From the NCBI RefSeq assembly GCF_018687715.1, contig NC_056766.1:19451001-19515000 (forward strand): a stretch of DNA of 64,000 nt, written 5' to 3'. The position numbers and the translations under genes are program-made. Source of the DNA: Carya illinoinensis. Taxonomy: Eukaryota > Streptophyta > Magnoliopsida > Fagales > Juglandaceae. This document shows, piece by piece, positions 5,660-37,669 of the stretch (position 1 is its first letter; each line of letters opens with the position of its first letter). The notes under the pieces are model-generated. The model searched no databases. It saw nothing but the letters and a program-made list of their open reading frames with translations, and was not told the origin of the DNA.

Positions 5660-6159
5660 TCAGTCTATACGAGGCTGATCCGGACTTTTGTATGCACTGC
5701 ACCAATCAGCTCTATTGTCTGTGCGTGGATCTCTACATGCACGATATTTGTAATCTCCCTCACGAATAGTAGTGTGTGATGTGCCTTGTGTAGATGCCTC
5801 CCTCAATACGCCATGATTTCTCGGGTGTGCTTCTCCTTGAGTGTCGATCGCCTTTGTTGTGAGTGCATGAATACAAAATCTAGAGTGTCCCATGCTGCGT
5901 GACAAGGTAGAGGACTTGATCGGTCCAATTAGCTTTCGAACATGCTTATATGCATTTGGTTGGACCTAAAAGAAATCGTGTAAGCAAGACACAAAATGGC
6001 AATATATCTATCATAACATAGGTGGCCTCTGATTAAATCCCAGCGAAGATATATTCCGCTAGGTCGATAAGCGACCCATACCATAAACCGTGCCCAATCC
6101 ATGCTAACCTCAGTCTTGTGCAACCGTAGATCAATGTTGTTTGCTATTATTATATTCAT
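5660..6159 (-). pseudogene. 3' half of the opposing-strand ORF of the CACTA element
   Basis: Minus-strand frames here read as a decayed protein. One open stretch ends near 5929 and includes a region like DWARFMVWVAYRPSG, followed downstream by polar low-complexity sequence. The 5' half is at 37120-37669, on the other side of the copia element; the copia target duplication lies exactly at the break. The arrangement recalls the 'putative plant transposon protein' domain family (often listed as Transposase_32), with its late aromatic block followed by a helix-rich segment. The assignment is tentative because both halves have stops and frameshifts. Confidence 0.4.
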
Positions 6160-7423
6160 TGTTGCCCAAATGACTAACATAAGAGGGGGTAAATTAGGTT
6201 GTATTTAAAAATTAATAATTATAAATCAAATACACAATATAAAATATAAACAAAATACGAAACAACAATAGATATAAAGAGTTAAGGTAACAGAGAAGCA
6301 AACTCAGTATGTTAACAAGGTTCGGTCCCACTGTCTACGTCATCACCTCAAGCTACCCCTTGAGGATCTCTAAATTCACTATTTAACCTCCTTCAGGTGG
6401 AGATAGAAACCTATTACACCTTTGAACAACACCGCTATAAAAGATTCGTGTAGAACACCCTCTATACTTGCAATCACCTAACACGTGGTGATTTAACTAT
6501 TCCCTGCGTAGAACACTTTTTACACGCACAAAGGTTATATATACCCTTTTACTGATACAAGAGCTAATAGTGGGTAGGTTATCAGAGAACACTCCTCAAT
6601 GAGTGAAATAAGAACAATACAGTGCAAATTATATCTCTTAAAATGAACAAGGGTTAAGACTCAATGCTTAGAGAAGAGAGAATGAAAGTTTTGAATGAAT
6701 GCTATATGCTCTTGGTGTAATAAATTTGAAACTCTCAAATGATCTATTTATAGGAATATGAGATTTCATATTCAAATTTAAAAAGATTATCATGTTAAAG
6801 ATAACATCATTCACTTTTTCAAAAAATTCAAATAAAAGTTTCTTCTTTTTCATTTGTCAAAAACATCATTTACTTTTCAAAAATTTCAACCCTAATCTTT
6901 TTACTTTTCACATATAACAAAATGAGTACTATTTACTTTTCAAATCTTTCAAACAAAATCATTTACCTTTTGCATAAGTCAAAAAGAGTATCAATTACTT
7001 TTAAAAATATTCAAATAAAGCACATATGAAAAATGACAATCAATCATCTTTAATATTTTCAAAATTCAAACTTTTAATCATGTCATGCACATATGAAAGA
7101 TGACAATCAATCATCTTTCAAATTTTCAGACTTAATTTTTAAAATATTCATGCATATGTAGAAAATATATTTTAATACTTTATAATAAAATATTAATTTT
7201 GAATATTAATCCTAATTTCAAATTTTTAAGAGATGTACAATATTACTCTATGAGTTTTAATGTGAATTTATTCCCTTCTCACTCATGTTTGGTTCCTTGA
7301 TATGCTTGATTCTATTATGTAGACAACTTGAATTTGAGACTCATTTATTCTTTGAATTCGTTTATTATCATCAAAATCCATGTGTAGATATATAATTATA
7401 TGAAACTTGAAACCTTGGATTCA
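6160..7423 (-). repeat. Copia 3' LTR (left), 1264 bp
   Basis: Starts TGTTGC and ends ATTCA on the plus strand, matching the right LTR at both edges. On the minus strand a TATA box (TATAAATA) lies at 6752-6745. This is the only complete LTR copy. About 300 bp containing that TATA box is absent from every right-side copy. Confidence 0.88.
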
Positions 7424-7442
7424 ATAATCTCCACCTTTTTTA
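7424..7442 (-). promoter_or_regulatory. Copia polypurine tract
   Basis: On the minus strand the bases directly before the 3' LTR read AAAAAAGGTGGAGATTAT, the expected plus-strand priming tract. This placement fixes both the LTR edge and the orientation of the element. Confidence 0.75.
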
Positions 7443-8668
7443 TGATGAAAAATAATTCGTAAAACCTGAAGTCTGTATTAATAGTTAAGATCCCTTTAAA
7501 AATGTGCGTTAGTATTTCAAGCATGTAGAACCTGAAACCTGTATTAATACTTAAGCTCCTTCTGAGAATGTACGTTAGTATTTCAAGCAAAACTATAAAT
7601 ATAATTCCAAGCATATCTAACCAGTTTAACAATTCAAATAATGTTAATGTTCTAATATAAAATTTCTCCCCCGTTTGGTATCATTAAAAAGGATCCGCAA
7701 AAAAAAAAAAAAAAATAGACTGAAGAAAAAGCGGAGTGTTAGTAAAAACTGTAGATAGTTGAAAAATTAGAGCCACCCGCAACCCGACAAGTGTTGCAAA
7801 GCCTTAAGGCCTAACTCTATGAATTTAGTGCGACTGGAGATTTAAACAATCGCCTGATGTTAATCCACTGGCTTAGCAAGGAAGCTTTTGACAATATGTG
7901 TCCAACATATCTTGTATTTTTTGACTGAATAAGATTTGAAGAGATGATAGCTTGTCTTGTTCGTTATGCTATCTTTATAAAATCAGTCTTAAATTTCATC
8001 CAATTCGCATCAAATTTTATTCTCATTTCTATAGCTCATCTGCATGCCTTCAATATTCTTGCTTTAAACTTTCAATTCTTTTCTCAATGACTCATTCTTT
8101 TAACATTTCTCTAGATCCATCTATGAGGTATTCTATGCGGCCTCAATCTCATGTCATTTCTGCAGCTGCCATTGATGTCATGTTGCAGCAAGAGAATAAC
8201 AATTTGGCTAATAAGTCAGACTCCAATGCTATCTACGACTTGGTGAGTCTCACGACTTGTTACTCCTTCTCTATAGTTACTTTTTTCCAACGACTACAAG
8301 TCAGAAATTATGAGATTGAAAAGTTTAAAGAACAAATTGTTGTACTTTAGCGAATTGTTCAAGAGTCTCACACAAGAGAATGAATCTTTCGATAGAAGAA
8401 TAAATAGTTCAAATCCCTATTAGATTCTTCATTCCGCTTGTCAACTCCCATGGATTGGGATGACATGATATTGTATGAAAAAAATAAGCGTCTCAAACAT
8501 AAGGCTACGAACCTCAAGTTTATGTAAAAGTATTTATAGAAATTCTCTCTATTTTTATTAACTTTGATCTATCTTTTAAGAAATATTCATAGTATGCATC
8601 ATACATATTTTTCTTTTAATTATGCAAAGTCTATCTTCTGGCAAAATTTTTGTGAAAATATCTGCTAA
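7443..8668. other. Copia 3' non-coding region
   Basis: Lies between the RNase H remnant and the polypurine tract. No convincing gene is seen. One plus-strand frame (7952-8350) is open but unlike any family I recognise and runs against the element's orientation. SIRE-type elements often carry a long 3' spacer or a degenerate env-like ORF here, but I cannot show one. Confidence 0.5.
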
Positions 8669-8851
8669 TTAATCGTGTGTGCTTGTGAACTTTAGTATTA
8701 TATCACCCTTCTGTACATGATTTCGAAGAAAATGATATCTATTTTCAATATACTTAGTTCTAGAATGTTGTATTGGGTTCTTTGAAAGATTTATAGCACT
8801 TATATTATCACATTTGATTAGAATGTGATTATACATGAGTTTAACATATTT

Positions 8852-9520
8852 AAGTTGTTGCTTCATATATTAAAGTCGAGACCATTGTTGGAAATGCATT
8901 AGCAATGCAGAAGTCCTATAAGGAATTAAGAATTAAATCTGTTTCAGTAGTGAGACAGCAGTGTAGATGGGAAGCCCCACAAGCTGGTGTGTTTAAACTC
9001 AATATAGATGGTGCTTTTTCTTCTACGGGTTCATTGGCTGGAATTGGAGCTATTGTCAGGGATTCAAAGGGTGAGGTTATAATGTCTGCTGCAAAGAGAG
9101 AAGTTTCTGTTATGACAGCTGTTGAGGTGGAGGCTCTAGCTATTCTCAGAGGCTTACAGTTCTGCATTCATCTTGGTATTCAAAATCTTGTGATTGAGAG
9201 TGACTCCTTGCTGGTGGTTAACGAGTTCAATAGACAAGGATCTTCACAGGCAACCTTTGGTAATGTGGTTAGCGAAGCTAAGGAGTTGATGACATGCTTT
9301 AGTACCTGTCAGGTTCAACATGTTATTAGAAGCTGCAATTCAGCAGCACATTCACTTGCCAAGTTTGGTTTAAGTGTTCAGAATATTAGTTTATGGTGGG
9401 GAGGTTATCCTGATGTAATTTCTAATATTCTTTGGAGTGATTCAAGTACCTTGTAAGTTTTATTTTATGATAATGAAGTATGTTTTCCTATCAAAAAAAA
9501 AAAAGTTGTTGCTTCATATA
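8852..9520 (+). mobile_element. 5'-truncated L1-type LINE inserted in copia RNase H
   Basis: An 18-bp target duplication (AAGTTGTTGCTTCATATA) flanks the insert at 8852-8869 and 9503-9520. The insert ends in a 12-A tail preceded by TTTCCTATC, a common plant LINE 3' end. Only the last 0.63 kb of the LINE is present, as expected from premature termination of target-primed reverse transcription. Confidence 0.92.
8905..9456 (+). CDS. LINE ORF2 C-terminal RNase H domain (partial)
   Basis: A 183-residue open frame forms the C-terminal RNase H (RVT_3 type) domain of a plant L1-like ORF2. Visible signatures are KLNIDGAFS (first catalytic Asp), GIGAIVRDSKGEV, EVEALAILRGL (Glu), VIESDSLLVV (second Asp) and a terminal HSLAKFGL helix. 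In full LINEs this domain follows endonuclease and reverse transcriptase, which are absent here. The frame is intact, so the insertion is probably fairly recent, but with no promoter and no reverse transcriptase it should be non-functional. The ATG is incidental. Confidence 0.85.
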   Translation: MQKSYKELRIKSVSVVRQQCRWEAPQAGVFKLNIDGAFSSTGSLAGIGAIVRDSKGEVIMSAAKREVSVMTAVEVEALAILRGLQFCIHLGIQNLVIESDSLLVVNEFNRQGSSQATFGNVVSEAKELMTCFSTCQVQHVIRSCNSAAHSLAKFGLSVQNISLWWGGYPDVISNILWSDSSTL

Positions 9521-12310
9521 AAGAATTTGAACATAACAACTACCCACAACAACATATTTTACCTCAGCAATAGATAATGCAAAAGAATTTTACTTTTTAC
9601 TAAACTAGGAAACTAGTGCATGACCTAAGAAATGACATGCTCCACTAGTGTTTTTTCGATCAATTTTACAACCAGTATAATCAGTATCTATGTAGCTGAT
9701 TAGATCGAAAGATGTGTGCTTAGGGCACCATAATCCTAGGTCAATTATACCACTAAGATATTTAAGAATGTGCTTAATTGCAATCAAATGAGATTCCATT
9801 GGAGATGATTAAAAGCATGCACATATGTGCACACTAAACATAATATCTAGTCTACTGGCTGTCAAATATAATAAGTTACCAATCATACCTTGATATACTT
9901 TTGAGTCAACAGGCTTACTGGTTTCATCTTTATCAAGTTTAGTGGATGGGCTTATTGGTATTCCAATTTCCTGAGTACTTTCCATTCCAAACTTTTTGAG
10001 TAATTCCTTAATATATTTTGATTGATTGATTAATGTTTCACTTTTTGCTTGCTTGATTTGCAATTCGAGAAAGAATGTAAGTTCTCCCATCATGCTCATT
10101 TTAAATCTTCCTACATAATTTTAGCAAAAACTTGGCACGTATTTTCATTAATAGCACTAAATATTATATCATCAACATAAATTTGAATTAAAAGAATATC
10201 ATCATTTACGTATTTAATAAAAAGCGTTGTGTCAATTTTTCCTCTTGAAAAACTTTTTTCAATCAAGAAATCAATGAGTCTCTCGTACCAAACTCTAGGA
10301 ACTTGTTTGAGTCTATATAGTGCTTTTGTAAGTTTGAAAACATCATTCAGAGAAATATGATTTTCAAAACCTGGAGGTTGCTCAACATATACCTCTTCAT
10401 TTATAAAACCATTTAAGAAAGAACTTTTAACATCCATTTGAAAAAGTTAAAATCTTTATAACGAGCATATGCAAGTAGCATTCAAATAGTTTCTAATCTT
10501 GCGACTGGTGCATATGTCTCATCATAATCGATTCCTTCTTCTTGATTGAAACATCGGGCTACAAGTTCAGCCTTATTTCTAGTAATGACTCTGGACTCAT
10601 CTTTTTTATTTCTAAAAGTCCATTTTGTTCCAATAATAGTATTATTTTTGGGTCTAAGAACAAGTGTCTAAATATCATTTTTTTTAAATTGATCCAGCTC
10701 GTCTTGCATAGCTAAAATCTAAGATTCATCAAAAAGTGTTTCATCAATATTTTTGGGTTCAATCTGAGATAGAAAAGCAATATGATTGCAAATATTTCTA
10801 AAAGATGACTGAGCACTTACACCTCATGGAGGTTCTCCCAGAATTTATTCCACTGGATGATCTTTCACAAATTTTCACTGTTTGGTTGCATCTTGTGTTC
10901 AATTTTGATTATCTTTCCAAATGTCTTCATGTTGGACTTCTCTATTATGTTCTCTTTGTTGAGATTGAGACTTTTCGTACTATTTATACCTCATGTTTCT
11001 TTATCAACGGATTTCTTAAAGAGTAGAGAATTAGATTTATCAAATACTATATGTATAGATACTTGTACAATCAAAGTCTTTATTGATACTTTATAAACTT
11101 TATTATTAGTAGAATACCCAAGAAAGATATATTTATCAGATTTTGCATCAAACTTGGCTAAATTATCTCTGTCATTCAAAATAAAATATTTACATCCAAA
11201 TACATGAAAGAAACTAATGTTTAGTTTTTTCTCATTCCAAAACTCATATGGGGTTTTATCTAGTTTAGATCTTAGCGTAACCCTATTTATAACATAACAT
11301 GCAGTACTTATTTCTTTGACCCAAAAATAACTAGACAAGTTATTCTCATTGAATATTGTTTTTGCCATTTCTTGAGTAGATCTATTTTTTCTCTTTACTA
11401 CCCCATTTTGTTGAGAAGTTCGAAGAGCAAAGAAATTATACACAAAATCATTTTCATCACAAAAAGTTTCAATATTTTTATTAACAAACTATTTTCCTCT
11501 ATCATTTCGGATATTTGAATTAGTATATCTCTTTTCATTTTGAATTCTTTTGCATAACTTGGTAAAAGTATTATGTGCCTCATCTTTATGAGTAAGAAAT
11601 ATGGCCCAAGTATATATAGAGAAATCATCAACAATAACAAATGTATAATATTTTCCTTCTAAATTTGCAACTCTATTTGATCCAAAAAAATCCATGTGTA
11701 TCAGTTGTGGTGGTCTAATAGTGAAAATATGTTTCTTAGTTTTAAAATAAATTTTTGTTTGTTTACTAAATTAGTATGCATCACAAATTTTGTCTTTATG
11801 AAAATTTGCCTTCAGTAAACCTCTGACAATATCATTTTTTAAAAGTTTAGAAATAAGTTCCATGTTGGCATGACCTAGTCTTCTATGCCATAACCAACTA
11901 GTTTTATTTTGAACTAAAAAACAAATAGCATCTTGTAAGGCAATTTTTTCAAAATCAATTTTATAAATATTGTTGCTTCTAAAAGTAATAAAACAGACAT
12001 TGCAATCATGATCATTCAAAATAATGCACTTATCCATTTTGAAAGTAATTGTAAATCGTTTATCACATAATTGACTTATACTCAAAAGATTATACTTTAG
12101 ACCTTCAACAAGTAGAATATCTTCAATTATGTGAGAAGATTTGTTATCAATTTTATATATTTTCACGATTTTCCCTTTTGAGTTGTCTTCAAATGTCACG
12201 TGTTCTTCTTCTTTAGATCTAAAATCGAAGAACTTAGTCTTATTTCCGGTCATATGTCTTGAACATCTACTATCTAAAAACCATTTGTTTTTGCTTGTGG
12301 ATGACTTCAT

Positions 12311-14010
12311 GCATACCTATAAAAACAATTAAAATGATTTTTCTTGGTACCCAAGTTCTTTAACTCATTTATTTATTATTATTAGAAGAAACAAGATTTT
12401 TAGATACCCATATAACCTTAATAGTCATGGTCTGCTTTCTTTTAATAGGACAAACATGATAATTATGACCATTTCTATTACAAAAATTGCAAATAGCATG
12501 TGGCATATATGAAGATCGAACTTGAGTGATTGTAATAGTATCTTTTTTTTTTTATAAAATTATTTTTTTAAAAAGAATTTTGAATATTGGACTTTGATGT
12601 AGAAAGATTATCAAAGAAGTTTTAATAAGGTTTGTATTTTTATTTTGGCATATATTCCAAGCCTGCATTGTCAAAAACACATATTTGATTACCAAGAAGT
12701 TTTTTAAAATTTCTTTTTCCATTTATAAAGTTTTCAATAATATTTTCTAAATCAGTTTTCTTCTTCTTCAACTCAAGATTTTAATCTTTCAAAATGATAT
12801 TTTCTTTTTTTAAAACATCAATTTCGTTTGTTAAAAAATAATTTTTCTTTTTCAAAGTAGTATAGTTGATACTCAATTTTTCAAGTTTCTCATATATTTC
12901 TTCTAAAATATTTTACAATTTTTCATATGAAAGATCTTCAATATTATCAAGATTTGTTACCTCAAGGTCATTTTTAGCCATAATACAAATATTTGCTTAT
13001 TCTTCATTACTTGCTTCACTATCTGAGCTATTCGAATCATCATCTCATGTAACTTTCATTACTTTCTTGCCCTTGTTTCAATCTTTCTTTAGTAGAGGAC
13101 AATCTAGTTTGATATGTGTAGGCTTATTGCATTTATAACAAATTAAAGTGTCATTTTTACTTGAATCTTTTTTGAAAATTTTTTTGAAGGATTTATTCGG
13201 ATGAGTTTTATTTTTTTTCAAAAACCTCTTAATTCTTCTTGTTATCATCGCAACTTCTTCATCGTTTTCATCATTTTTCTCATTTTCATTACTTTCACTT
13301 TCATGAGAAACAGCTTTAAGTGCTAAGTTCTTCTTTGGTTTTTATTCTTCTTCTCCTCTTTTCAATGTGTACTCATGAGTGATAATTGACTCGATAAGTT
13401 CATTCACTTCGAGCTTCTTGAGATCTCTACCTTCAAGAATCGCTATCACTTTTGATTTCCAGTATTTTGGTAGAGAATTGAGAATTTTTCTTACTATCTC
13501 CATCTTGGAATAAACTTTGCCAAGAGCTGTCAAGCTGTTTATAATGTTATTAAAACTAGTGTACATACTAGAAATAAATTCATCATCATTCATATTAAAC
13601 ATTTCATATTCATGAATAAGAATATAAATTTTTGATTGCTTGACTTGCGAAATTCTTTCATAAGTAACTTCCAAGTTATCCTAAAGTTTCTTTGCCATAG
13701 CTCAAGTCATTATTCTATTAGACTCATTTCCATTGAGAGCATTATAAAATAAATTCATAACAGTTAAATTCAATGTATAAAATCTATCGACTTCATGATC
13801 AAACTCTTCTTCTTCTTTTTTGACCTTTACTCCATCAACCACTTATGTTAGAATATAAGGTCCATTTGTAATGTATTTTCAGATTTCCTAACCTTGAGCC
13901 TGAATGAATATTCCCATTCTAACTTTCCAGAATAGATAATTGTCTCCACAAAAGAGTGGAGGCCAACTGTTAGATTGACCTTCACCAAATGAAGTTGCAA
14001 TGTTAGCCAT
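12311..14010 (-). pseudogene. Copia gag remnant (UBN2 type, CCHC knuckle)
   Basis: The minus-strand ATG at 14010 begins a gag whose first residues are MANIATSFGEGQ. A UBN2-like capsid segment is open at 13674-13342 (VKQSKIYILIHEYEMF, ILNSLPKYWKSKV). A CX2CX4HX4C zinc knuckle, CYKCNKPTHIKLDC, lies near 13138-13097, followed by acidic and asparagine/serine-rich sequence. Several in-frame stops occur between 13900 and 13680, so it is a pseudogene. The first 18 or so codons of this gag are included in every unit of the neighbouring tandem array. Confidence 0.82.
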
Positions 14011-17000
14011 AAGATCTTAACTCAAAAGATAGTTAATCTTATAACAGAACCCATGCTCTGATATCAATTGTTGCACAGATGACTAACACAAGAGGGGATT
14101 GTATTTAAAAATTAAAAATTATAAATCAAATACATAATATAAAATAAAAACAAAATACGAAACAATAATAAATATAAAGAGTTAAGGTAAGAGAGAAGCA
14201 AACTCAGTATGTTAACGAGGTTCAGCCCCAGTACCTATGTCCTGATCTCAAGCTACCCCTTGAGAATTCTGAGGTATAAAGATTGTATACCTCATCTCAA
14301 GTATAAACTTTTCACTTTAAAAAAAAAAATCAAATAAAAGTCTATTCTTTTCAATTTTCAAAGACAACATCATTCACTTTTCAAAAAATTCAAATAAAAT
14401 TTTCTTCTTTTTCATTTATCAAAGACAATATCATTCATTTTTCAAATTTCAAACCTAATATTTTTATTTTTCACATATGATAAAAAGAGTACTATTTACT
14501 TTTCAAAATTTTCAAATAAAATATCTACCTTTTGCATAAGTCAAAAAAAGCATCAATTACTTTTGAAAATATTTGAATGGAGGCCAACTGCTATATTGAC
14601 CTTCACCAAATGAAGCTGCAATGTTAGCCATAAGATCTTAACTCAAAAGATAGTTAATCTTATAACAGAACCCATGCTCTGATACCAATTGTTGCACAGA
14701 TGACTAACACAAGAGGGGGGATGCATTTGATTGTATTTAAAAATTAAAAATTATAAATCAAATACATAATATAAAATATAAACAAAATACGAAACAATAA
14801 TAAATATAAAGGGTTAAGATAAGAGAGAAGCAAACTCAGGATGTTAATGAGGTTCAGCCCCAGTACTTATGTCCTCATCTCAAGCTACCCCTTGAGAATT
14901 CTAAGGTATAAAGATTGTATACCTCATCTCAAGTATAAACTTTTCACTTTTAAAAAAAAAATCAAATAAAAGTCTATTCTTTTTAATTTTCAAAGACAAC
15001 ATCATTCACTTTTCAAAAAATTCAAATAAAATTTTCTTCTTTTTCATTTATCAAAGACAATATCATTCATTTTTCAAATTTCAAACCTAATATTTTTATT
15101 TTTCACATATGATAAAAGGAGTACTATTTACTTTTCAAAATTTTCAAATAAAATATCTACCTTTTACATAAGTCAAAAAAAGCATCAATTATTTTTGAAA
15201 ATATTTGAATAGAGGCCAACTGCTAGATTGACCTTCACCAAATGAAGCTGCAATGTTAGCCATAAGATCTTAACTCAAAAGATAGTTAATCTTATAACAG
15301 AACCCATGCTCTGATACCAATTGTTGCACAGATGACTAACACAAGAGGGGAGATGAATTTGATTGTATTTAAAAATTAAAAATTATAAATAAAATACATA
15401 ATATAAAATAAAAACAAAATACGAAACAATAATAAATATAAAGAGTTAAAGTAAGAGAGAAGCAAACTCATTATGTTAACGAGGTTCAGCCCCAGTACCT
15501 ATGTCCTCATCTCAAGCTACCCCTTGAGAATTCTAAGGTATAAAGATTGTATACCTCATCTCAAGTATAAACTTTTCACTTTTAAAAAAAAAAATCAAAT
15601 AAAAGTCTATTCTTTTCAATTTTCAAAGACAACATCATTCACTTTTCAAAAAATTCAAATAAAATTTTCTTCTTTTTCATTTATCAAAGACAATATCATT
15701 CATTTTCAAATTTCAAACCTAATATTTTTATTTTTCACATATGATAAAAGGAGTACTATTTACTTTTCAAAATTTTCAAATAAAATATCTACCTTTTACA
15801 TAAGTCAAAAAAAGCATCAATTACTTTTGAAAATATTTGAATGGAGGCCAACTGCTAGATTGACCTTCACCAAATGAAGCTGCAATGTTAGCCATAAGAT
15901 CTTAACTCAAAAGATAGTTAATCTTATAACAGAACCCATGCTCTGATACCAATTGTTGCACAGATGACTAACACAAGAGGGGAGATGAATTTTATTGTAT
16001 TTAAAAATTAAAAATTATAAATCAAATACATAATATAAAATAAAAACAAAATACGAAACAATAATAAATATAAAGAGTTAAGGTAAGAGAGAAGCAAATT
16101 CATTATGTTAATGAGGTTCAGCCCCAGTACCTATGTCCTCATCTCAAGCTACCCCTTGAGAATTCTAAGGTATAAAGATTGTATACCTCATCTCAAGTAT
16201 AAACTTTTCACTTTTAAAAAAAAAATCAAATAAAAGTCTATTCTTTTCAATTTTCAAAGACAACATCATTCACTTTTCAAAAAATTCAAATAAAATTTTC
16301 TTCTTTTTCATTTATCAAAGACAATATCATTCATTTTTCAAATTTCAAACCTAATATTTTTATTTTTCACATATGATAAAAGGAGTACTATTTACTTTTC
16401 AAAATTTTCAAATAAAATATCTACCTTTTGCATAAGTCAAAAAAAGCATCAATTACTTTTGAAAATATTTGAATGGAGGCCAACTGCTATATTGACCTTC
16501 ACCAAATGAAGCTGCAATGTTAGCCATAAGATCTTAACTCAAAAGATAGTTAATCTTATAACAGAACCCATGCTCTGATACCAATTGTTGCACATATGAC
16601 TAACACAAGAGGGGGGATGCATTTGATTGTATTTAAAAATTAAAAATTATAAATCAAATACATAATATAAAATATAAACAAAATACGAAACAATAATAAA
16701 TATAAAGGGTTAAGATAAGAGAGAAGCAAACTCAGCATGTTAATGAGGTTCAGCCCCAGTACTTATGTCCTCATCTCAAGCTACCCCTTGAGAATTCTAA
16801 GGTATAAAGATTGTATACCTCATCTCAAGTATAAACTTTTCACTTTTAAAAAAAAAATCAAATAAAAGTCTATTCTTTTGAATTTTCAAAGACAACATCA
16901 TTTACTTTTCAAAAAATTCAAATAAAATTTTCTTCTTTTTCATTTATCAAAGACAATATCATTCATTTTTCAAATTTCAAACCTAATATTTTTATTTTTC

Positions 17001-20000
17001 ACATATGATAAAAGGAGTACTATTTACTTTTCAAAATTTTCAAATAAAATATCTACCTTTTACATAAGTCAAAAAAAGCATCAATTATTTTTGAAAATAT
17101 TTGAATGGAGGCCAACTGCTAGATTGACCTTCACCAAATGAAGCTGCAATGTTAGCCATAAGATCTTAACTCAAAAGATAGTTAATCTTATAACAGAACC
17201 CATGCTCTGATACCAATTGTTGCACAGATGACTAACACAAGAGGGGAGATGAATTTGATTGTATTTAAAAATTAAAAATTATAAATAAAATACATAATAT
17301 AAAATAAAAACAAAATACGAAACAATAATAAATATAAAGAGTTAAAGTAAGAGAGAAGCAAACTCATTATGTTAACGAGGTTCAGCCCCAGTACCTATGT
17401 CCTCATCTCAAGCTACCCCTTGAGAATTCTAAGGTATAAAGATTGTATACCTCATCTCAAGTATAAACTTTTCACTTTTAAAAAAAAAAATCAAATAAAA
17501 GTCTATTCTTTTCAATTTTCAAAGACAACATCATTCACTTTTCAAAAAATTCAAATAAAATTTTCTTCTTTTTCATTTATCAAAGACAATATCATTCATT
17601 TTCAAATTTCAAACCTAATATTTTTATTTTTCACATATGATAAAAGGAGTACTATTTACTTTTCAAAATTTTCAAATAAAATATCTACCTTTTACATAAG
17701 TCAAAAAAAGCATCAATTACTTTTGAAAATATTTGAATGGAGGCCAACTGCTAGATTGACCTTCACCAAATGAAGCTGCAATGTTAGCCATAAGATCTTA
17801 ACTCAAAAGATAGTTAATCTTATAACAGAACCCATGCTCTGATACCAATTGTTGCACAGATGACTAACACAAGAGGGGAGATGAATTTGATTGTATTTAA
17901 AAATTAAAAATTATAAATCAAATACATAATATAAAATAAAAACAAAATACGAAACAATAATAAATATAAAGAGTTAAGGTAAGAGAGAAGCAAACTCATT
18001 ATGTTAACAAGGTTCAGCCCCAGTACCTATGTCCTCATCTCAAGCTACACCTTGAGAATTCTAAGGTATAAAGATTGTATACCTCATCTCAAGTATAAAC
18101 TTTTCACTTTTAAAAAAAAAATCAAATAAAAGTCTATTCTTTTCAATTTTCAAAGACAACATCATTCACTTTTCAAAAAATTCAAATAAAATTTTCTTCT
18201 TTTTCATTTATCAAAGACAATATCATTCATTTTTCAAATTTCAAACCTAATATTTTTATTTTTCACATATGATAAAAGGAGTACTATTTACTTTTCAAAA
18301 TTTTCAAATAAAATATCTACCTTTTGCATAAGTCAAAAAAAGCATCAATTACTTTTGAAAATATTTGAATGGAGGCCAACTGCTATATTGACCTTCACCA
18401 AATGAAGCTGCAATGTTAGCCATAAGATCTTAACTCAAAAGATAGTTAATCTTATAACAGAACCCATGCTCTGATACCAATTGTTGCACAGATGACTAAC
18501 ACAAGAGGGAGGATGAATTTGATTGTATTTAAAAATTAAAAATTATAAATCAAATACATAATATAAAAAATAAACAAAATACGAAACAATAATAAATATA
18601 AAGGGTTAAGGTAAGAGAGAAGCAAACTCAGTATGTTAATGAGGTTCAGCCCCAGTACTTATGTCCTCATCTCAAGCTACCCCTTGAGAATTCTAAGGTA
18701 TAAAGATTGTATACCTCATCTCAAGTATAAACTTTTCACTTTTAAAAAAAAAAATCAAATAAAAGTCTATTCTTTTCAATTTTCAAAGACAACATCATTC
18801 ACTTTTCAAAAAATTCAAATAAAATTTTCTTCTTTTTCATTTATCAAAGACAATATCATTCATTTTCAAATTTCAAACCTAATATTTTTATTTTTCACAT
18901 ATGATAAAAGGAGTAATATTTACTTTTCAAAATTTTCAAATAAAATATCTACCTTTTACATAAGTCAAAAAAAGCATCAATTACTTTTGAAAATATTTGA
19001 ATGGAGGCCAACTGCTAGATTGACCTTCACCAAATGAAGCTGCAATGTTAGCCATAAGATCTTAACTCAAAAGATAGTTAATCTTATAACAGAACCCATG
19101 CTCTGATACCAATTGTTGCACAGATGACTAACACAAGAGGGGAGATGAATTTGATTGTATTTAAAAATTAAAAATTATAAATCAAATACATAATATAAAA
19201 TAAAAACAAAATACGAAACAATAATAAATATAAAGAGTTAAGGTAAGAGAGAAGCAAACTCATTATGTTAACAAGGTTCAGCCCCAGTACCTATGTCCTC
19301 ATCTCAAGCTACACCTTGAGAATTCTAAGGTATAAAGATTGTATACCTCATCTCAAGTATAAACTTTTCACTTTTAAAAAAAAAATCAAATAAAAGTCTA
19401 TTCTTTTCAATTTTCAAAGACAACATCATTCACTTTTCAAAAAATTCAAATAAAATTTTCTTCTTTTTCATTTATCAAAGACAATATCATTCATTTTTCA
19501 AATTTCAAACCTAATATTTTTATTTTTCACATATGATAAAAAGAGTACTATTTACTTTTCAAAATTTTCAAATAAAATATCTACCTTTTGCATAAGTCAA
19601 AAAAAGCATCAATTACTTTTGAAAATATTTGAATGGAGGCCAACTGCTATATTGACCTTCACCAAATGAAGCTGCAATGTTAGCCATAAGATCTTAACTC
19701 AAAAGATAGTTAATCTTATAACAGAACCCATGCTCTGATACCAATTGTTGCACAGATGACTAACACAAGAGGGGGGATGCATTTGATTGTATTTAAAAAT
19801 TAAAAATTATAAATCAAATACATAATATAAAATATAAACAAAATACGAAACAATAATAAATATAAAGGGTTAAGATAAGAGAGAAGCAAACTCAGTATGT
19901 TAATGAGGTTCAGCCCCAGTACTTATGTCCTCATCTCAAGCTACCCCTTGAGAATTCTAAGGTATAAAGATTGTATACCTCATCTCAAGTATAAACTTTT

Positions 20001-23000
20001 CACTTTTAAAAAAAAAATCAAATAAAAGTCTATTCTTTTTAATTTTCAAAGACAACATCATTCACTTTTCAAAAAATTCAAATAAAATTTTCTTCTTTTT
20101 CATTTATCAAAGACAATATCATTCATTTTTCAAATTTCAAACCTAATATTTTTATTTTTCACATATGATAAAAGGAGTACTATTTACTTTTCAAAATTTT
20201 CAAATAAAATATCTACCTTTTACATAAGTCAAAAAAAGCATCAATTATTTTTGAAAATATTTGAATGGAGGCCAACTGCTAGATTGACCTTCACCAAATG
20301 AAGCTGCAATGTTAGCCATAAGATCTTAACTCAAAAGATAGTTAATCTTATAACAGAACCCATGCTCTGATACCAATTGTTGCACAGATGACTAACACAA
20401 GAGGGGAGATGAATTTGATTGTATTTAAAAATTAAAAATTATAAATAAAATACATAATATAGAATAAAAACAAAATACGAAACAATAATAAATATAAAGA
20501 GTTAAAGTAAGAGAGAAGCAAACTCATTATGTTAACGAGGTTCAGCCCCAGTACCTATGTCCTCATCTCAAGCTACCCCTTGAGAATTCTAAGGTATAAA
20601 GATTGTATACCTCATCTCAAGTATAAACTTTTCACTTTTAAAAAAAAAATCAAATAAAAGTCTATTCTTTTGAATTTTCAAAGACAACATCATTTACTTT
20701 TCAAAAAATTCAAATAAAATTTTCTTCTTTTTCATTTATCAAAGACAATATCATTCATTTTTCAAATTTCAAACCTAATATTTTTATTTTTCACATATGA
20801 TAAAAGGAGTACTATTTACTTTTCAAAATTTTCAAATAAAATATCTACCTTTTACATAAGTCAAAAAAAGCATCAATTATTTTTGAAAATATTTGAATGG
20901 AGGCCAACTGCTAGATTGACCTTCACCAAATGAAGCTGCAATGTTAGCCATAAGATCTTAACTCAAAAGATAGTTAATCTTATAACAGAACCCATGCTCT
21001 GATACCAATTGTTGCACAGATGACTAACACAAGAGGGGAGATGAATTTGATTGTATTTAAAAATTAAAAATTATAAATAAAATACATAATATAAAATAAA
21101 AACAAAATACGAAACAATAATAAATATAAAGAGTTAAAGTAAGAGAGAAGCAAACTCATTATGTTAACGAGGTTCAGCCCCAGTACCTATGTCCTCATCT
21201 CAAGCTACCCCTTGAGAATTCTAAGGTATAAAGATTGTATACCTCATCTCAAGTATAAACTTTTCACTTTTAAAAAAAAAAAATCAAATAAAAGTCTATT
21301 CTTTTCAATTTTCAAAGACAACATCATTCACTTTTCAAAAAATTCAAATAAAATTTTCTTCTTTTTCATTTATCAAAGACAATATCATTCATTTTCAAAT
21401 TTCAAACCTAATATTTTTATTTTTCACATATGATAAAAGGAGTACTATTTACTTTTCAAAATTTTCAAATAAAATATCTACCTTTTACATAAGTCAAAAA
21501 AAGCATCAATTACTTTTGAAAATATTTGAATGGAGGCCAACTGCTATATTGACCTTCACCAAATGAAGCTGCAATGTTAGCCATAAGATCTTAACTCAAA
21601 AGATAGTTAATCTTATAACAGAACCCATGCTCTGATACCAATTGTTGCACAGATGACTAACACAAGATGGGAGATGAATTTGATTGTATTTAAAAATTAA
21701 AAATTATAAATCAAATACATAATATAAAATAAAAACAAAATACGAAACAATAATAAATATAAAGAGTTAAGGTAAGAGAGAAGCAAACTCATTATGTTAA
21801 CGAGGTTCAGCCCCAGTACCTATGTCCTCATCTCAAGCTACCCCTTGAGAATTCTAAGGTATAAAGATTGTATACCTCATCTCAAGTATAAACTTTTCAC
21901 TTTTAAAAAAAAAATCAAATAAAAGTCTATTCTTTTCAATTTTCAAAGACAACATCATTCACTTTTCAAAAAATTCAAATAAAATTTTCTTCTTTTTCAT
22001 TTATCAAAGACAATATCATTCATTTTTCAAATTTCAAACCTAATATTTTTATTTTTCACATATGATAAAAGGAGTACTATTTACTTTTCAAAATTTTCAA
22101 ATAAAATATCTACCTTTTGCATAAGTCAAAAAAAGCATCAATTACTTTTGAAAATATTTGAATGGAGGCCAACTGCTATATTGACCTTCACCAAATGAAG
22201 CTGCAATGTTAGCCATAAGATCTTAACTCAAAAGATAGTTAATCTTATAACAGAACCCATGCTCTGATACCAATTGTTGCACAGATGACTAACACAAGAG
22301 GGAGGATGAATTTGATTGTATTTAGAAATTAAAAATTATAAATCAAATACATAATATAAAAAATAAACAAAATACGAAACAATAATAAATATAAAGGGTT
22401 AAGGTAAGAGAGAAGCAAACTCAGTATGTTAATGAGGTTCAGCCCCAGTACTTATGTCCTCATCTCAAGCTACCCCTTGAGAATTCTAAGGTATAAAGAT
22501 TGTATACCTCATCTCAAGTATAAACTTTTCACTTTTAAAAAAAAAATCAAATAAAAGTCTATTCTTTTCAATTTTCAAAGACAACATCATTCACTTTTCA
22601 AAAAATTCAAATAAAATTTTCTTCTTTTTCATTTATCAAAGACAATATCATTCATTTTTCAAATTTCAAACCTAATATTTTTATTTTTCACATATGATAA
22701 AAGGAGTACTATTTACTTTTCAAAATTTTCAAATAAAATATCTACCTTTTGCATAAGTCAAAAAAAGCATCAATTACTTTTGAAAATATTTGAATGGAGG
22801 CCAACTGCTATATTGACCTTCACCAAATGAAGCTGCAATGTTAGCCATAAGATCTTAACTCAAAAGATAGTTAATCTTATAACAGAACCCATGCTCTGAT
22901 ACCAATTGTTGCACAGATGACTAACACAAGAGGGAGGATGAATTTGATTGTATTTAAAAATTAAAAATTATAAATCAAATACATAATATAAAAAATAAAC

Positions 23001-26000
23001 AAAATACGAAACAATAATAAATATAAAGGGTTAAGGTAAGAGAGAAGCAAACTCAGTATGTTAATGAGGTTCAGCCCCAGTACTTATGTCCTCATCTCAA
23101 GCTACCCCTTGAGAATTCTAAGGTATAAAGATTGTATACCTCATCTCAAGTATAAACTTTTCACTTTTAAAAAAAAAATCAAATAAAAAGCTATTCTTTT
23201 TAATTTTCAAAGACAACATCATTCACTTTTCAAAAAATTCAAATAAAATTTTCTTCTTTTTCATTTATCAAAGACAATATCATTCATTTTTCAAATTTCA
23301 AACCTAATATTTTTATTTTTCACATATGATAAAAGGAGTACTATTTACTTTTCAAAATTTTCAAATAAAATATCTACCATTTACATAAGTCAAAAAAAAC
23401 ATCAATTACTTTTGAAAATATTTGAATGGAGGCCAACTGCTATATTGACCTTCACCAAATGAAGCTGCAATGTTAGCCATAAGATCTTAACTCAAAAGAT
23501 AGTTAATCTTATAACAGAACCCATGCTCTGATACCAATTGTTGCACAGATGACTAACACAAGAGGGGAGATGAATTTGATTGTATTTTAAAATTAAAAAT
23601 TATAAATCAAATACATAATATAAAATAAAAACAAAATACGAAACAATAATAAATATAAAGAGTTAAGGTAAGAGAGAAGCAAACTCATTATGTTAACGAG
23701 GTTCAGCCCCAGTACCTATGTCCTCATCTCAAGCTACCCCTTGAGAATTCTAAGGTATAAAGATTGTATACCTCATCTCAAGTATAAACTTTTCACTTTT
23801 AAAAAAAAAAATCAAATAAAAGTCTATTCTTTTCAATTTTCAAAGACAACATCATTCACTTTTCAAAAAATTCAAATAAAATTTTCTTCTTTTTCATTTA
23901 TCAAAGACAATATCATTCATTTTCAAATTTCAAACCTAATATTTTTATTTTTCACATATGATAAAAGGAGTACTATTTACTTTTCAAAATTTTCAAATAA
24001 AATATCTACCATTTACATAAGTCAAAAAAAACATCAATTACTTTTGAAAATATTTGAATGGAGGCCAACTGCTAGATTGACCTTCACCAAATGAAGCTGC
24101 AATGTTAGCCATAAGATCTTAACTCAAAAGATAGTTAATCTTATAACAGAACCCATGCTCTGATACCAATTGTTGCACAGATGACTAACACAAGAGGGGA
24201 GATGAATTTGATTGTATTTTAAAATTAAAAATTATAAATCAAATACATAATATAAAATAAAAACAAAATACGAAACAATAATAAATATAAAGAGTTAAGG
24301 TAAGAGAGAAGCAAACTCATTATGTTAACGAGGTTCAGCCCCAGTACCTATGTCCTCATCTCAAGCTACCCCTTGAGAATTCTAAGGTATAAAGATTGTA
24401 TACCTCATCTCAAGTATAAACTTTTCACTTTTAAAAAAAAAAATCAAATAAAAGTCTATTCTTTTCAATTTTCAAAGACAACATCATTCACTTTTCAAAA
24501 AATTCAAATAAAATTTTCTTCTTTTTCATTTATCAAAGACAATATCATTCATTTTCAAATTTCAAACCTAATATTTTTATTTTTCACATATGATAAAAGG
24601 AGTACTATTTACTTTTCAAAATTTTCAAATAAAATATCTACCTTTTACATAAGTCAAAAAAAGCATCAATTACTTTTGAAAATATTTGAATGGAGGCCAA
24701 CTGCTATATTGACCTTCACCAAATGAAGCTGCAATGTTAGCCATAAGATCTTAACTCAAAAGATAGTTAATCTTATAACAGAACCCATGCTCTGATACCA
24801 ATTGTTGCACAGATGACTAACACAAGATGGGAGATGAATTTGATTGTATTTAAAAATTAAAAATTATAAATCAAATACATAATATAAAATAAAAACAAAA
24901 TACGAAACAATAATAAATATAAAGAGTTAAGGTAAGAGAGAAGCAAACTCATTATGTTAACGAGGTTCAGCCCCAGTACCTATGTCCTCATCTCAAGCTA
25001 CCCCTTGAGAATTCTAAGGTATAAAGATTGTATACCTCATCTCAAGTATAAACTTTTCACTTTTAAAAAAAAAATCAAATAAAAGTCTATTCTTTTCAAT
25101 TTTCAAAGACAACATCATTCACTTTTCAAAAAATTCAAATAAAATTTTCTTCTTTTTCATTTATCAAAGACAATATCATTCATTTTTCAAATTTCAAACC
25201 TAATATTTTTATTTTTCACATATGATAAAAGGAGTACTATTTACTTTTCAAAATTTTCAAATAAAATATCTACCTTTTACATAAGTCAAAAAAAGCATCA
25301 ATTACTTTTGAAAATATTTGAATGGAGGCCAACTGCTAGATTGACCTTCACCAAATGAAGCTGCAATGTTCGTCATAAGATCTTAACTCAAAAGATAGTT
25401 AATCTTATAACAGAACCCATGCTCTGATACCAATTGTTGCACAGATGACTAACACAAGAGGGGAGATGAATTTGATTGTATTTAAAAATTAAAAATTAAA
25501 AATCAAAGACAGAATATAAAATAAAAACAAAATACGAAACAATAATAAATATAAAGAGTTAAGGTAAGAGAGAAGCAAACTCATTATGTTAACGAGGTTC
25601 AGCCCCAGTACCTATGTCCTCATCTCAAGCTACCCCTTGAGAATTCTAAGGTATAAAGATTGTATACCTCATCTCAAGTATAAACTTTTCACTTTTAAAA
25701 AAAAAAATCAAATAAAAGTCGATTCTTTTCAATTTTCAAAGACAACATCATTCACTTTTCAAAAAATTCAAATAAAATTTTCTTCTTTTTCATTTATCAA
25801 AGACAATATCATTCATTTTCAAATTTCAAACCTAATATTTTTATTTTTCACATATGATAAAAGGAGTAATATTTATTTTTCAAAATTTTCAAATAAAATA
25901 TCTACCTTTTACATAAGTCAAAAAAAGCATCAATTACTTTTGAAAATATTTGAATGGAGGCCAACTGCTAGATTGACCTTCACCAAATGAAGCTGCAATG

Positions 26001-26590
26001 TTAGCCATAAGATCTTAACTCAAAAGATAGTTAATCTTATAACAGAACCCATGCTCTGATACCAATTGTTGCACAGATGACTAACACAAGAGGGGGGATG
26101 AATTTGATTGTATTTAAAAATTAAAAATTAAAAATCAAATACATAATATAAAATATAAACAAAATACGAAACAATAATAAATATAAAGGGTTAAGGTAAG
26201 AGAGAAGCAAACTCAGTATGTTAACGAGGTTCAGCCCCAGTACTTATGTCCTCATCTCAAGCTACCCCTTGAGAATTCTAAGGTATAAAGATTGTATACC
26301 TCATCTCAAGTATAAACTTTTCACTTTTAAAAAAAAAATCAAATAAAAGTCTATTCTTTTTAATTTTCAAAGACAATATCATTCACTTTTCAAAAAATTC
26401 AAATAAAATTTTCTTCTTTTTCATTTATCAAAGACAATATCATTCATTTTTCAAATTTCAAACCTAATATTTTTATTTGTCACATATGATAAAAGGAGTA
26501 CTATTTACTTTTCAAAATTTTCAAATAAAATATCTACCTTTTGCATAAGTCAAAAAAAGCATCAATTACTTTTGAAAATATTTGAATGGA
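13949..26590 (-). repeat. 632-bp tandem array of LTR / primer site / gag start
   Basis: Twenty repeat periods follow the original LTR-internal junction. The LTR start (TGTTGCACAG or close variant) occurs at 14069, 14690, 15322, 15954, 16586, 17218, 17850, 18482, 19114, 19746, 20378, 21010, 21643, 22275, 22907, 23539, 24171, 24803, 25435, 26067 and 26699. Spacing is 632 bp except 621 for the first period and 633 for one. Read on the minus strand, each unit holds a truncated LTR, a tRNA-Met primer site, a short leader and about 18 gag codons, then passes directly into the next LTR fragment at TTTGAATGGAGGCC (plus strand). Units differ by few substitutions. The recurrent 134-residue plus-strand open frames are only a by-product of the repeat. 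Confidence 0.97.
14055..14066 (-). promoter_or_regulatory. Copia primer-binding site (original copy)
   Basis: On the minus strand it reads TGATATCAGAGC, two bases inside the LTR edge, complementary to the 3' end of initiator-Met tRNA apart from one base. All later copies in the array carry the canonical TGGTATCAGAGC (for example 14676-14687), so the copy next to gag has mutated. Confidence 0.85.
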
Positions 26591-26698
26591 GGCCAACTGC
26601 TAGATTGACCTTCACCAAATGAAGCTGGAATGTTAGCCATAAGATCTTAACTCAAAAGATAGTTAATCTTATAACAGAACCCATGCTCTAATACCAAT

Positions 26699-27618
26699 TG
26701 TTGCACAGATGACTAACACAAGAGGGGAGATGAATTTGATTGTATTTAAAAATTAAAAATTATAAATCAAATACATAATATAAAATATAAACAAAATACG
26801 AAACATTAATAAATATAAAGCGTTAAGGTAAGAGAGAAGTAAACTCAGTATGTTAACGAGATTCAGCCCCAGTACCTATGTCCTCATCTCAAGCTACCCC
26901 TTGAGAATTCTAAGGTATAAAGATTGTATACCTCATCTCAAGTATAAACTTTTCACTTTTAAAAAAAAAATCAAATAAAAGTCTATTCTTTTCAATTTTC
27001 AAAGACAATATCATTCACTTTTCAAAAATTTCAAATAAAATTTTCTTCTTTTTCATTTATCAAAGACAATATCATTCATTTTTCAAATTTCAAACCCAAT
27101 ATTTTTATTTTTCACATATGATAAAAGGAATACTATTTACTTTTCAAAATATTCAAATAAAATATCTACCTTTTGCATAAGTCAAAAAAAGCATCAATTA
27201 CTTTTGAAAATATTCAAACAAAGTATGCACATGTGGAAGATGATAATGTACATGTGAAAGAAGACAATCAATCATGTCATGTCATGTCATGTACATGTGA
27301 AAGAAGACAATCAATCATTTTTCAAATTTTTAAATTTAATTTTCAAAATATTCATGTACATGTGGAAAATATATTTTAATACTTTATAATAAAATATAAT
27401 TTTGAGTATTAATCCTAATTTCAAATTTTTTAAGAGATGTACAACATTACTCTATGAGTTTTAATGTGAGATTGTTTCATTCTTGCTTATGCTTAGTTCC
27501 TTAATTTGCTTAATTCCATTATGTAAACAACTTGAGTTTGAGACTCATTTATTCTTTGAATTCATTTATTATCATTAAAATCTATGTGTAGATATATAAT
27601 TACATGAAACTTGAAAAT
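26699..27618 (-). repeat. Copia 5' LTR (outermost copy), split by gypsy insertion
   Basis: This is the only right-side copy that runs beyond the array breakpoint to the true LTR edge. It continues past the gypsy element at 37108-37119 and ends TTTAACA before the TTCAT duplication. It totals about 932 bp against 1264 bp for the left LTR, because it lacks the TATA-box segment. It contains a small duplication of GTACATGTGAAAGAAGACAA around 27248-27310. Confidence 0.85.
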
Positions 27619-29789
27619 TGTGACGCCCCCAAAATCCCCACGCCCGAACACGGGGAAGTTGAGACGTCCGGATGGTGACAACCCGGGTCACCATCCCATC
27701 GTCGGGTGCCGAGTGTGTGCAAGGCAACAGATGTGTACAGAGAAACTCGCAGCGGATAAAGAAAGTCATAACTAAGTACCAGAATTTTTCTTAACGTAAA
27801 ACAAGCTGTTTAAAACGTACATAGATAAATATTACAAAACACGACTACAGTTTTAAACAAATATAAAGATAGCATCAGCAACCCGGCGGAGCCGCATCCT
27901 CGGGCTCAGCCTCCTCCTCTTCGTCCTCTAACTCTGCACCAAAAGCTACGGAACCACGAATGGTACCGCAGGTAAGTAAAACCCAAACACTACCAGATAA
28001 AAACACATAAAACTCATACAAGATGCATGAAACATGCCCAATGCACAAAGCCCACAAAAACCCAAGTTTTCCACACACGCCAAAAAAACCCATTTGGCCC
28101 AAAAGCATATCCTTTATGAAAAACACGCCAAAAGTCACATTTGGCCGCCAAAAGTCCATTTGGCCCAATATCTCGCCGGAAGTCCATCCGGCCCAATATC
28201 TCGCCAGAAGTCCATCTGGCCCACGCCAAAAGTCACATTGGCCTCATAAACCATTATCCAATTTTAACCGTATGCACCATGACCTCCCCTAGGGGTCATC
28301 CGCACACCCTGGCTCCAGTGTCACACCGCAGAGTACCACCACGCATGTGACACCTAACAAGCGATGCCCAGTTCCGCGCCCCGCGCGTGCGTAGCCAAGC
28401 ATCCTCTAGCCCTCGCCAGCGAAGGGCCACGGAGTCGGTGAGTAGGGCGATGCCCGGTTCCATGCCCGGCACGTTCGTAGCCAAGCATCCCCTAGTCCCG
28501 CTCCCGTCATCTCTCTCGATAACTCAGGGTACATCACTCAGTTTATTCCGCTCCCGAGTGACCAGAGGAGCTCCACCGAGATAATAACCCATCCCGGCTT
28601 GGGCTCGTGATACACACGCACCCGTAAAACCACTCACGCCAATACACAGACTTTTCACATAAGACCACAAACACACGTGCATGCACCATGAAATGCCATA
28701 TCAATGCATAATAAAATAATCCAACAAACATAAACAATTAAACAGACAACTCCGTCCTCCATCCATCCGACCCCCGAAACTCCTCGGACTCAGTCCGGAA
28801 TCAACAACCAACAACAGTAAAATATATTGAATGAGCGATATATATATTTAAATCTGAAAATAGGGTTTGGAAAATACTTACAGCGCTATACGGCAATTTT
28901 AGAAAACAAGCGGCGTTGCAAGCGGTGGAAAAACAGCAACGTCACAGTGAAAATTCACTGTGGCCGTGGGTCTGAAAAACCCACTTTTGAACGGGGACAA
29001 ACTAGGACACGAGATTGATGGGGGATGGTCAAGGGATGGTTGTGAAGCTAAAGGAAGTGACGGACGGCCGTGGGTGGCGGCGGAATGGCCGGAAATGGCC
29101 GAAAATGGCAAATCGGAAAACAAGCTCGTGGGAGCTGCTCCGGTGGTCGATGGAGGCCGGAAATGGGTGGGTTAGGACGGCAAGGGACCGGTGATGAAGT
29201 GGTGAAGAAATGGTGGCCGGAGGTGGAGCGACGGCGGCGGATCGGAGTGAAATCCGTGCGCCCTTTGGAAGCTTTTTCCGGCCAAATGGCCGGCCGGTTG
29301 GGGGTGGTTTTCGGTGGGGAGGTGCACCGGAGGGAGGGGGAACTTTTGGGACCGGTAGGGGTCCGGTTGGTGGCCAGACGGCGCTGGGCTGGAGGAGAGA
29401 GAGAGACGACACGGGGGAGAGGGAGGAGAGAGAGAGAGAGCACGGGGGGGTTCGGTCGAGCGGGAGAGGAGAGAAAGAAAAGAAAAAAAAAAAGAAAAAA
29501 GAAGGAAAAAGGAAAAGAAGGGAAAAGAAAAAGGAAAAAGAGGAAAAAGGAAAAAGATGTAGGGAAAAGAGGAGGTCCAATCCTCTTTTCGGGAAGCAAA
29601 ACTAACCCGCCAAAAGATTAAAAACCACAAAACAACTAAAGAAAAAAAAAACACAACATCAAATAAACTAAATTAAATTAAAAACCCAATTTTTTTAAAA
29701 CGAAAATAAATTAAAATAAATAGCTAATATATTAATTAAAATAAAAACAAATATTTCAGCGAAAATACACTCAAAAACGGGTCATCACA
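27619..29789 (-). repeat. Gypsy 3' LTR (left)
   Basis: Plus-strand TGTGACGCC to GGGTCATCACA. It contains a GC-rich segment (28960-29450), a purine-rich tract (29400-29570) and a short tandem block near 28110-28245. Open frames of 60-183 codons on both strands inside it are artefacts of base composition; the same frames recur in the other LTR. Confidence 0.95.
28110..28245. repeat. Short tandem block inside the gypsy LTR
   Basis: Three to four diverged copies of a ~30-bp unit around AAGTCCATTTGGCCCAATAT. It is present identically placed in the other LTR at about 35427-35562. It could be an enhancer-like LTR repeat; no function can be shown from sequence. Confidence 0.7.
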
Positions 29790-37102: not shown

Positions 37103-37119
37103 AAAATTTAGGTTTAACA

Positions 37120-37669
37120 TTCATGATCCTGGAAAAATTGGATAAGTGCCACTATTTGATGCTCTTGGTCCCATTATTGAGAGGAGCATCTGGACCCACA
37201 ACCAACTGACAAACCGATCAAGGAAGCCATCAAACTCATCTACTACATCAATATCCTTGTCCTCAGTAGTTTCCCCATCACTTGAACTCTCTAGGCACCA
37301 CACTCAGATATTCAGTGTGCAGTCGAGGGATATGAAGAAAATTGACGACTGCATCCATTGAGAATCTAACTGATACACCCTGAACAAAGAAGGTGTATGC
37401 GTCATCATCCTAGCTAGCACCATCAAGTTCTCTATAGAACTCAGATACAATCACAACATGGGCAATGATCATATCCTTCATTTCGTCCTTCTGGTTGATG
37501 ATTAGTGTCTAACCACAGTCGAGAAAGACAGATGCCAAATAATGACCCTTCCATAGAAGATCCTTAAAATCCTCGATCTTCACTTGATACTCCAACAAAA
37601 TAGTCCTCTCTCAGACTTTTTTGCTGCGGGGTTGACCTGACTTGTCCCGCTTCCTTCCCCGAGAAGCCA
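37120..37669 (-). pseudogene. 5' half of the opposing-strand ORF of the CACTA element
   Basis: The minus-strand ATG at 37669 begins MASRGRKRDKSGQ. The reading then passes through several stops but keeps recognisable stretches such as VKIEDFKDLLWKGHYLASVF, VIVSEFYREL and FVQGVSVRFSMDAVVNFL. The layout (EFY block, then a V.G..V.F...A...FL block) resembles the N-terminal half of the 'putative plant transposon protein' domain. The remaining half is at 5660-6159, beyond the copia insertion. It points away from the TNP2 gene, with motif-rich DNA (37830-38460) in between that could have held a bidirectional promoter. Decayed; assignment tentative. Confidence 0.42.

Follow-up and report, generated by a model that had tools for sequence, protein, structure and literature searches.

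A tandem array of LTR, primer site and gag start inside a Copia element of Carya illinoinensis

Tandem repeats built from parts of long terminal repeat (LTR) retrotransposons have been described before. Two reviews present LTRs and gag as known sources of satellites (PMC9659126 and PMC12628747), and the first of them adds untranslated regions (UTRs). The closest described systems are CRM1TR and CRM4TR of maize, which are LTR/UTR-derived repeats (Sharma, Wolfgruber and Presting 2013; PMC3648361). Here we analyzed a stretch of 64,000 nucleotides of Carya illinoinensis (NCBI RefSeq assembly GCF_018687715.1, contig NC_056766.1, positions 19,451,001 to 19,515,000; hereafter the window), in which 21 tandem copies of a 632-bp unit, made of an LTR part, the primer-binding site (PBS), and the start of gag, lie inside a Copia retrotransposon. 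This kind of array is already known from maize and is unusual mainly for the parent element that still surrounds it.

As described in PMC3648361, the maize monomers consist of part of the LTR and the sequence just downstream, with hundreds of base pairs on each side of the LTR-UTR junction; they are recombined, by conversion; those of CRM1TR have no TATA box; and inserted retrotransposons were used for dating. The locus reported here is similar in these respects, with a monomer that spans the LTR 3' end and the adjoining leader and has one recurrent breakpoint. Unlike the maize repeats, whose parents are centromeric Gypsy elements and which include 187 full-length CRM1TR monomers from two loci (PMC3648361), it derives from a Copia element (RVT_2, Retrotran_gag_2), extends 18 codons into gag, comprises 21 units at one locus, and has the parent interior and 3' LTR in place. 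For CRM1TR and CRM4TR, the founding step had to be inferred from the monomers, and the one proposed is a deletion that fused the UTR to a downstream LTR, in one element or in nested ones (PMC3648361). Here the parent survives with its two LTRs, together with both edges of the array and a later insertion, so the order of events can be read.

Other described arrays are less similar. Those of the Cassandra terminal-repeat retrotransposon in miniature (TRIM) also have LTR and internal sequence in tandem, with at least 12 repeated LTRs, but according to PMC7215508 the internal domain there is a spacer between LTRs, gag and pol are absent, and the LTR carries 5S sequences, whereas our unit has 516 bp of LTR and the gag start and its parent has gag/pol. 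The Ogre-derived satellites of Lathyrus likewise form arrays inside LTR retrotransposons and lengthen at some loci (Vondrak et al., PMC7004042); those arrays are found in the 3' UTR, downstream of gag-pol, of Gypsy elements with a dispersed genomic distribution (PMC7004042), while ours is placed between the 5' LTR and gag of a Copia element and has its junction at one locus. Sobo of wild potato is also a satellite similar to retrotransposon LTRs (via PMC3648361 and PMC9659126), with a 4.7-kb monomer over about 360 kb (PMC3648361). Among the titles and abstract beginnings searched, which left most subscription journals outside, none described an LTR-PBS-gag array within a Copia element. As far as this literature shows, the LTR/leader type of tandem repeat is extended here from Gypsy to Copia.

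The array occupies positions 13957-27214 of the window (plus-strand coordinates), where the 21 units are joined at 20 junctions with one breakpoint. Unit-to-unit spacing is 632 bp in 18 of the 20 intervals, 621 bp in one, and 633 bp in one; the single 621-bp interval is due to an 11-bp deletion in the leftmost copy (U0). Comparison of positions 13001-28000 with themselves gave a match of 0.816 at a shift of 632, versus 0.28-0.40 at the 59 other shifts from 600 to 659, which excludes periodicity by chance. Read on the minus strand, each unit runs from the 3' 516 bp of the LTR through the PBS, the leader, and the ATG with 18 gag codons to four bases, after which the next LTR piece begins. The window has no N, and the locus lies near 19.47 Mb of a 47.1-Mb contig (C15). 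The features of the element and the array are as follows.

6155..6159: target-site duplication TTCAT, left of the Copia element
6160..7426, minus strand: Copia 3' LTR, full length, 1267 bp, with the TATA box TATAAATAG (minus strand) inside 6744-6754
7427..13956, minus strand: Copia internal region, interrupted by numerous stops and frame breaks; matches to Pfam Retrotran_gag_2, Pol_BBD, gag_pre-integrs, SH3_retrovirus, and RVT_2 in pieces
13957..27214, minus strand: array of 21 units of 632 bp (gag 5' end with 18 codons, leader, PBS, and LTR 3' part) with 20 junctions
13957..14577, minus strand: left edge unit U0 (621 bp), which runs into native gag; mutated PBS (14055-14066), 11-bp deletion, 6 private variants
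14008..14010, minus strand: native gag start codon (ATG)
14572..14585, plus strand: first LTR/gag junction; 19 more follow at steps of about 632 bp, the final one at 26581-26594
26587..27214, minus strand: right edge unit U20, which runs into the native 5' LTR; mutated PBS, 13 private variants, 3 of them at breakpoint columns
26699..27618, minus strand: Copia 5' LTR, main part, without the TATA segment
27619..37102, minus strand: Gypsy element within the Copia 5' LTR, with an AAAAT duplication (27614-27618 and 37103-37107) and LTRs 99.6% identical
37108..37119, minus strand: Copia 5' LTR, outermost 12 bp
37120..37124: target-site duplication TTCAT, right of the Copia element

The junction sequence TTTGAATGGAGGCC is present in 19 exact copies, and the 20th, TTTGAATAGAGGCC at 15204, has a single change. 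The tRNA-Met PBS, TGGTATCAGAGC, is exact in 19 of the 21 copies; the two edge copies, which are continuous with the real gag and the real 5' LTR, have one change each. The gag ATG is retained in all 21 units (in U18, two changes at unit columns 49 and 51 stand beside the ATG at columns 52-54), and the breakpoint comes after 18 gag codons. No two of the 21 units are identical in sequence. A sequence-only reading of the window had seen 632-bp LTR-PBS-gag-start copies in tandem inside one Copia element, and in this it was right. It placed them at 13949..26700, which points to a real array but stops short of its right end at 27214, and it counted 21 LTR-PBS junctions in units with a common breakpoint; the breakpoint is indeed common, and the 21 units have 20 LTR/gag junctions. 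The start codon and roughly 18 codons that it gave each unit were found throughout.

Translation of 19 of the 20 junction-bearing units (U18 was left out) gave 24 residues to a stop in each, and the unit was rejected as a coding sequence. Its LTR part holds a repeat of about 61 bp in 2 to 3.3 imperfect copies (26964-27163 and most units), so the unit is itself internally repetitive.

The array sits within one minus-strand Copia insertion, 6160-37119, with TTCAT on both sides. The parent has the two LTRs, 5-bp target duplication, PBS, and Copia-type pol of a Copia LTR retrotransposon. Copia-type family matches were found in four of the five interior pieces scanned, and the fifth (8672-8869) had no family match. 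The 5' LTR totals 932 bp in two parts, 335 bp less than the 3' LTR. Because TTCAT flanks the Copia element and AAAAT flanks the Gypsy element, this is a single Copia insertion with a later insertion inside it. The parent had earlier been described simply as one copia element, to which the minus-strand orientation and the splitting of the 5' LTR by Gypsy can now be added. It is old, broken, and dead, and the array is confined to a single locus.

We searched the 674-Mb assembly (17 contigs) for the breakpoint, a check that the sequence-only reading had itself proposed. Allowing up to 3 mismatches, a junction pattern of 30 bases was found at 20 places, all in the array, and the reversed pattern, used as a control, at none. 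Eight further exact places of the 14-base junction sequence were dismissed as unrelated, having no blastn match to the unit. No close array was found elsewhere: the 39 of 3944 candidates that were scored, which did not include the window's own array, were all at or below 91% identity, and the junction-pattern search is the stronger negative. The earlier proposal of one founding junction followed by amplification is thus supported by 19 identical junctions and one changed junction, with none at other places.

The units have exchanged sequence with one another. With 27 informative columns in the 21 units, 99 of 351 column pairs show all four gametes, which requires 7 exchanges or more; for the 19 interior units by themselves the figures are 104 of 325 pairs and 7 exchanges. 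These gap-free figures replace a count in which one-unit gaps were used as a state (152 of 351 pairs, 9 exchanges). Neighboring units are no more alike than under random order (P = 0.44), and the mean difference among interior units is 1.64%. U0 has 6 private variants and U20 has 13, while the 19 interior units together have 18; the edge units thus hold most of the private changes, a pattern expected from unequal exchange or conversion, in which edges take part less. The units are recombined, and the exchange among them was extensive. The sequence-only reading suggested that the array may be a satellite caught at birth. Divergence among the interior units and their recombination indicate instead that it has a history and is not newborn. 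The word satellite is itself generous. The monomers show the homogenization expected from concerted evolution (the low interior difference, the private changes at the edges, and the four-gamete pairs), but strict usage implies abundant, long arrays, usually at several loci, and this one measures 13.3 kb at one locus.

The relative ages of the insertions were compared by LTR divergence (K). Between the two Copia LTRs, K is 0.160 (212 sites) and 0.163 (610 sites) in two alignable blocks, and in the second block the part within the unit has a K of 0.160 (210 sites) and the part beyond it 0.142 (379 sites). Between the Gypsy LTRs, K is 0.0042 (2167 sites). Given equal rates, we infer that the Copia insertion came first, then the coalescence of the units, and then the Gypsy insertion; the history of the array is apparently longer than that of the Gypsy insertion.

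The kinship of the units points in the same direction. U0 to U19 are 96.0-97.3% identical to U20, the copy at the native 5' LTR, and U5 shares 97.1% identity with the native 5' LTR/leader stretch, as against 86.6-87.6% with the element's own 3' LTR. A tree was built from 212 bp of LTR in 55 sequences, namely the 21 units, the element's 3' LTR, and 33 LTRs from relatives (locus L039 taking the place of L026). The 21 units were separated from the own 3' LTR and the relatives by a branch of 0.072 with a support of 100. A variant on 220 bp, including 8 bp past the LTR end that are nonhomologous in the own 3' LTR, agreed (stem of 0.068, support of 100). Since the units group apart from both, the present units coalesced after the insertion. 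Had the array come in with the insertion, its distances to the two LTRs should be roughly equal; the units seen now therefore arose, or were renewed, later. Mean K is 0.148 between the units and the own 3' LTR, 0.137 between the units and the relatives, and 0.129 between the own 3' LTR and the relatives. The units are slightly closer to the relatives than to the own 3' LTR, which would fit a slower rate of change in active copies than in a dead one.

The 3' LTR TATA 11-mer was not found in 13957-27618. We compared 30 related loci (L009-L038) out of 39 scored family places. Two LTR blocks with a spacing of about 40-80 bp in the unit are separated by 417-429 bp in 26 of these loci and by 241 bp in one; two loci gave no second block, and at L026 interference from a second LTR prevented the measurement. 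In 25 of the 30, the TATA 11-mer stands some 700 bp away from where the unit match starts. As most of the relatives compared carry the TATA segment, the short LTR form is a loss, common to all 21 units. Each unit, having no TATA segment, is therefore unlikely to be a promoter, and unit-driven transcription seems unlikely; read-through transcription from outside the array may occur. For comparison, CRM1TR, without a TATA box, is represented by one expressed sequence tag (EST) and no full-length cDNA, and CRM4TR by one EST and three full-length cDNAs, according to PMC3648361. From its sequence, the array is most likely a noncoding tandem repeat without gene function, able to expand and contract and with no promoter of its own, and it reveals no new function.

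Taken together, these results make it probable that the array was born in place, by a 632-bp duplication after insertion and then expansion and mixing by unequal exchange or conversion. A Copia element inserted once, as TTCAT on both sides shows, and its 5' LTR lost about 335 bp, including the TATA box, as the comparison with relatives shows. The 632 bp from inside the 5' LTR through the primer site to gag codon 18 would then have been duplicated head to tail. LTR matching at the breakpoint extends to 27214, and gag matching starts at 13957; four bases (TGAA) stand between LTR-matching and gag-matching sequence, and neither native site fully matches them. The two native breakpoint sites share no long run. 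The founding junction thus looks like end joining rather than homologous exchange, and an event of the end-joining type with little breakpoint homology would be the route. The resulting direct repeat of about 630 bp would have expanded to 21 copies and been mixed through unequal crossing-over, gene conversion, or both, involving sister or homologous chromatids, as the mosaic units and diverged edges suggest. The Gypsy element would have entered the outer 5' LTR afterwards, judging from its divergence. Since the last unit runs on into gag and the 3' LTR is still there, the present array cannot have been founded by a deletion inside one element; this simple course can be set aside here, and the direct 632-bp duplication is the simplest founding step.

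Several points weigh against this course of events. Homogenization resets unit ages, and the founding event may be older than the divergence of the units suggests; conversion may also have carried the common 335-bp loss from unit to unit at a later time. The contrast between edge and interior units has an exception, as interior unit U18 alone holds 6 of the 18 interior private variants. Multi-unit repeated blocks are no longer than in a shuffled unit order (P = 0.195), and no higher-order period is supported at any offset from 1 to 9 (P = 0.32); offsets of 5 and 6 units are slightly more alike, and a higher-order repeat structure was rejected on these two tests. Finally, the copy number is based on a single assembly.

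The most serious alternative, which we consider unlikely, is that unequal LTR exchange made an LTR-interior-LTR-interior-LTR chain, that a deletion brought the first gag start up against the middle LTR, and that the resulting LTR-gag~LTR dimer expanded. The Copia family does form chains, which keeps this course in play. At 15280420-15313130 of contig C1 (L055-L058), five LTRs and four interiors of the same family form a head-to-tail chain in which whole elements share LTRs. Its unit is exactly 7842 bp, and successive units are 99.92-99.99% identical; it reflects either unequal exchange between LTRs in the very recent past or an effect of assembly. In layout, with LTRs alternating with interiors, it resembles the Cassandra arrays as described in PMC7215508. 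An LTR-PBS-gag~LTR dimer also exists, on contig C9 near 36347 kb (L039:3715-7086), as a 1.7-kb repeat with copies 95.4% identical; about 20 bp of filler at its LTR 5' end reads like a primer site in the opposite orientation. A near model was proposed for CRM1TR and CRM4TR (PMC3648361). On the other hand, a chain followed by deletion needs more events than direct duplication, and comparison of the window with itself showed no second Copia interior. In its LTR part, the unit follows the 5' LTR type, although a recombinant middle LTR could yield that too.

That a shorter array was inflated in assembly is very unlikely: the dependence on one assembly leaves room for it, but all 21 units differ, substitutions common to several units occur in mosaic patterns, and no N interrupts the window. 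Rolling-circle copying of an excised unit circle, with reinsertion of the concatemer, could yield many equal units at once and is among the possible routes named for the CRM repeats in PMC3648361. It is highly improbable here, as both array edges are in register with native gag and the native 5' LTR and the units are mosaic, with differing private changes. The least probable course is that the array was made by template jumps in reverse transcription and carried in with the insertion: the unit does span the PBS, where strand transfer takes place in LTR retrotransposons, but this predicts about equal distances to both LTRs, is contradicted by the identities of U5 unless the array was completely renewed after insertion, and sits poorly with a junction found at no other place in the assembly.

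The Copia family is large, as a 35-base leader sequence occurs at 1520 places in the assembly, 760 per strand; the exactly equal counts on both strands may be chance. The survey of the family took in 100 of these places, and other short-period arrays of the family are possible beyond those. With the 632-bp array on C15, the 1.7-kb dimer on C9, and the 7.8-kb chain on C1, it is conceivable, if doubtful, that the LTR-PBS-gag-start region is a recurrent site of tandem duplication in the family, and that the locus, which keeps its parent, both edges, and a later insertion, records how direct duplication turned a retrotransposon into a tandem repeat, independently of any centromeric element.

The window has some further features. 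In the gag frame of the Gypsy element, positions 34369-34534 hold a 21-bp tandem repeat in 8 copies, encoding a stretch rich in Pro, Gly, and Trp. An open frame of 678 codons at 44741-46777 has hAT transposase domains (zf-BED, RNase-H-like, and dimerization). At the left window end, an exon-like frame at 1930-2232 matches DUF1218, its best species-named match being from Quercus suber, which places a plant gene near the Copia element.

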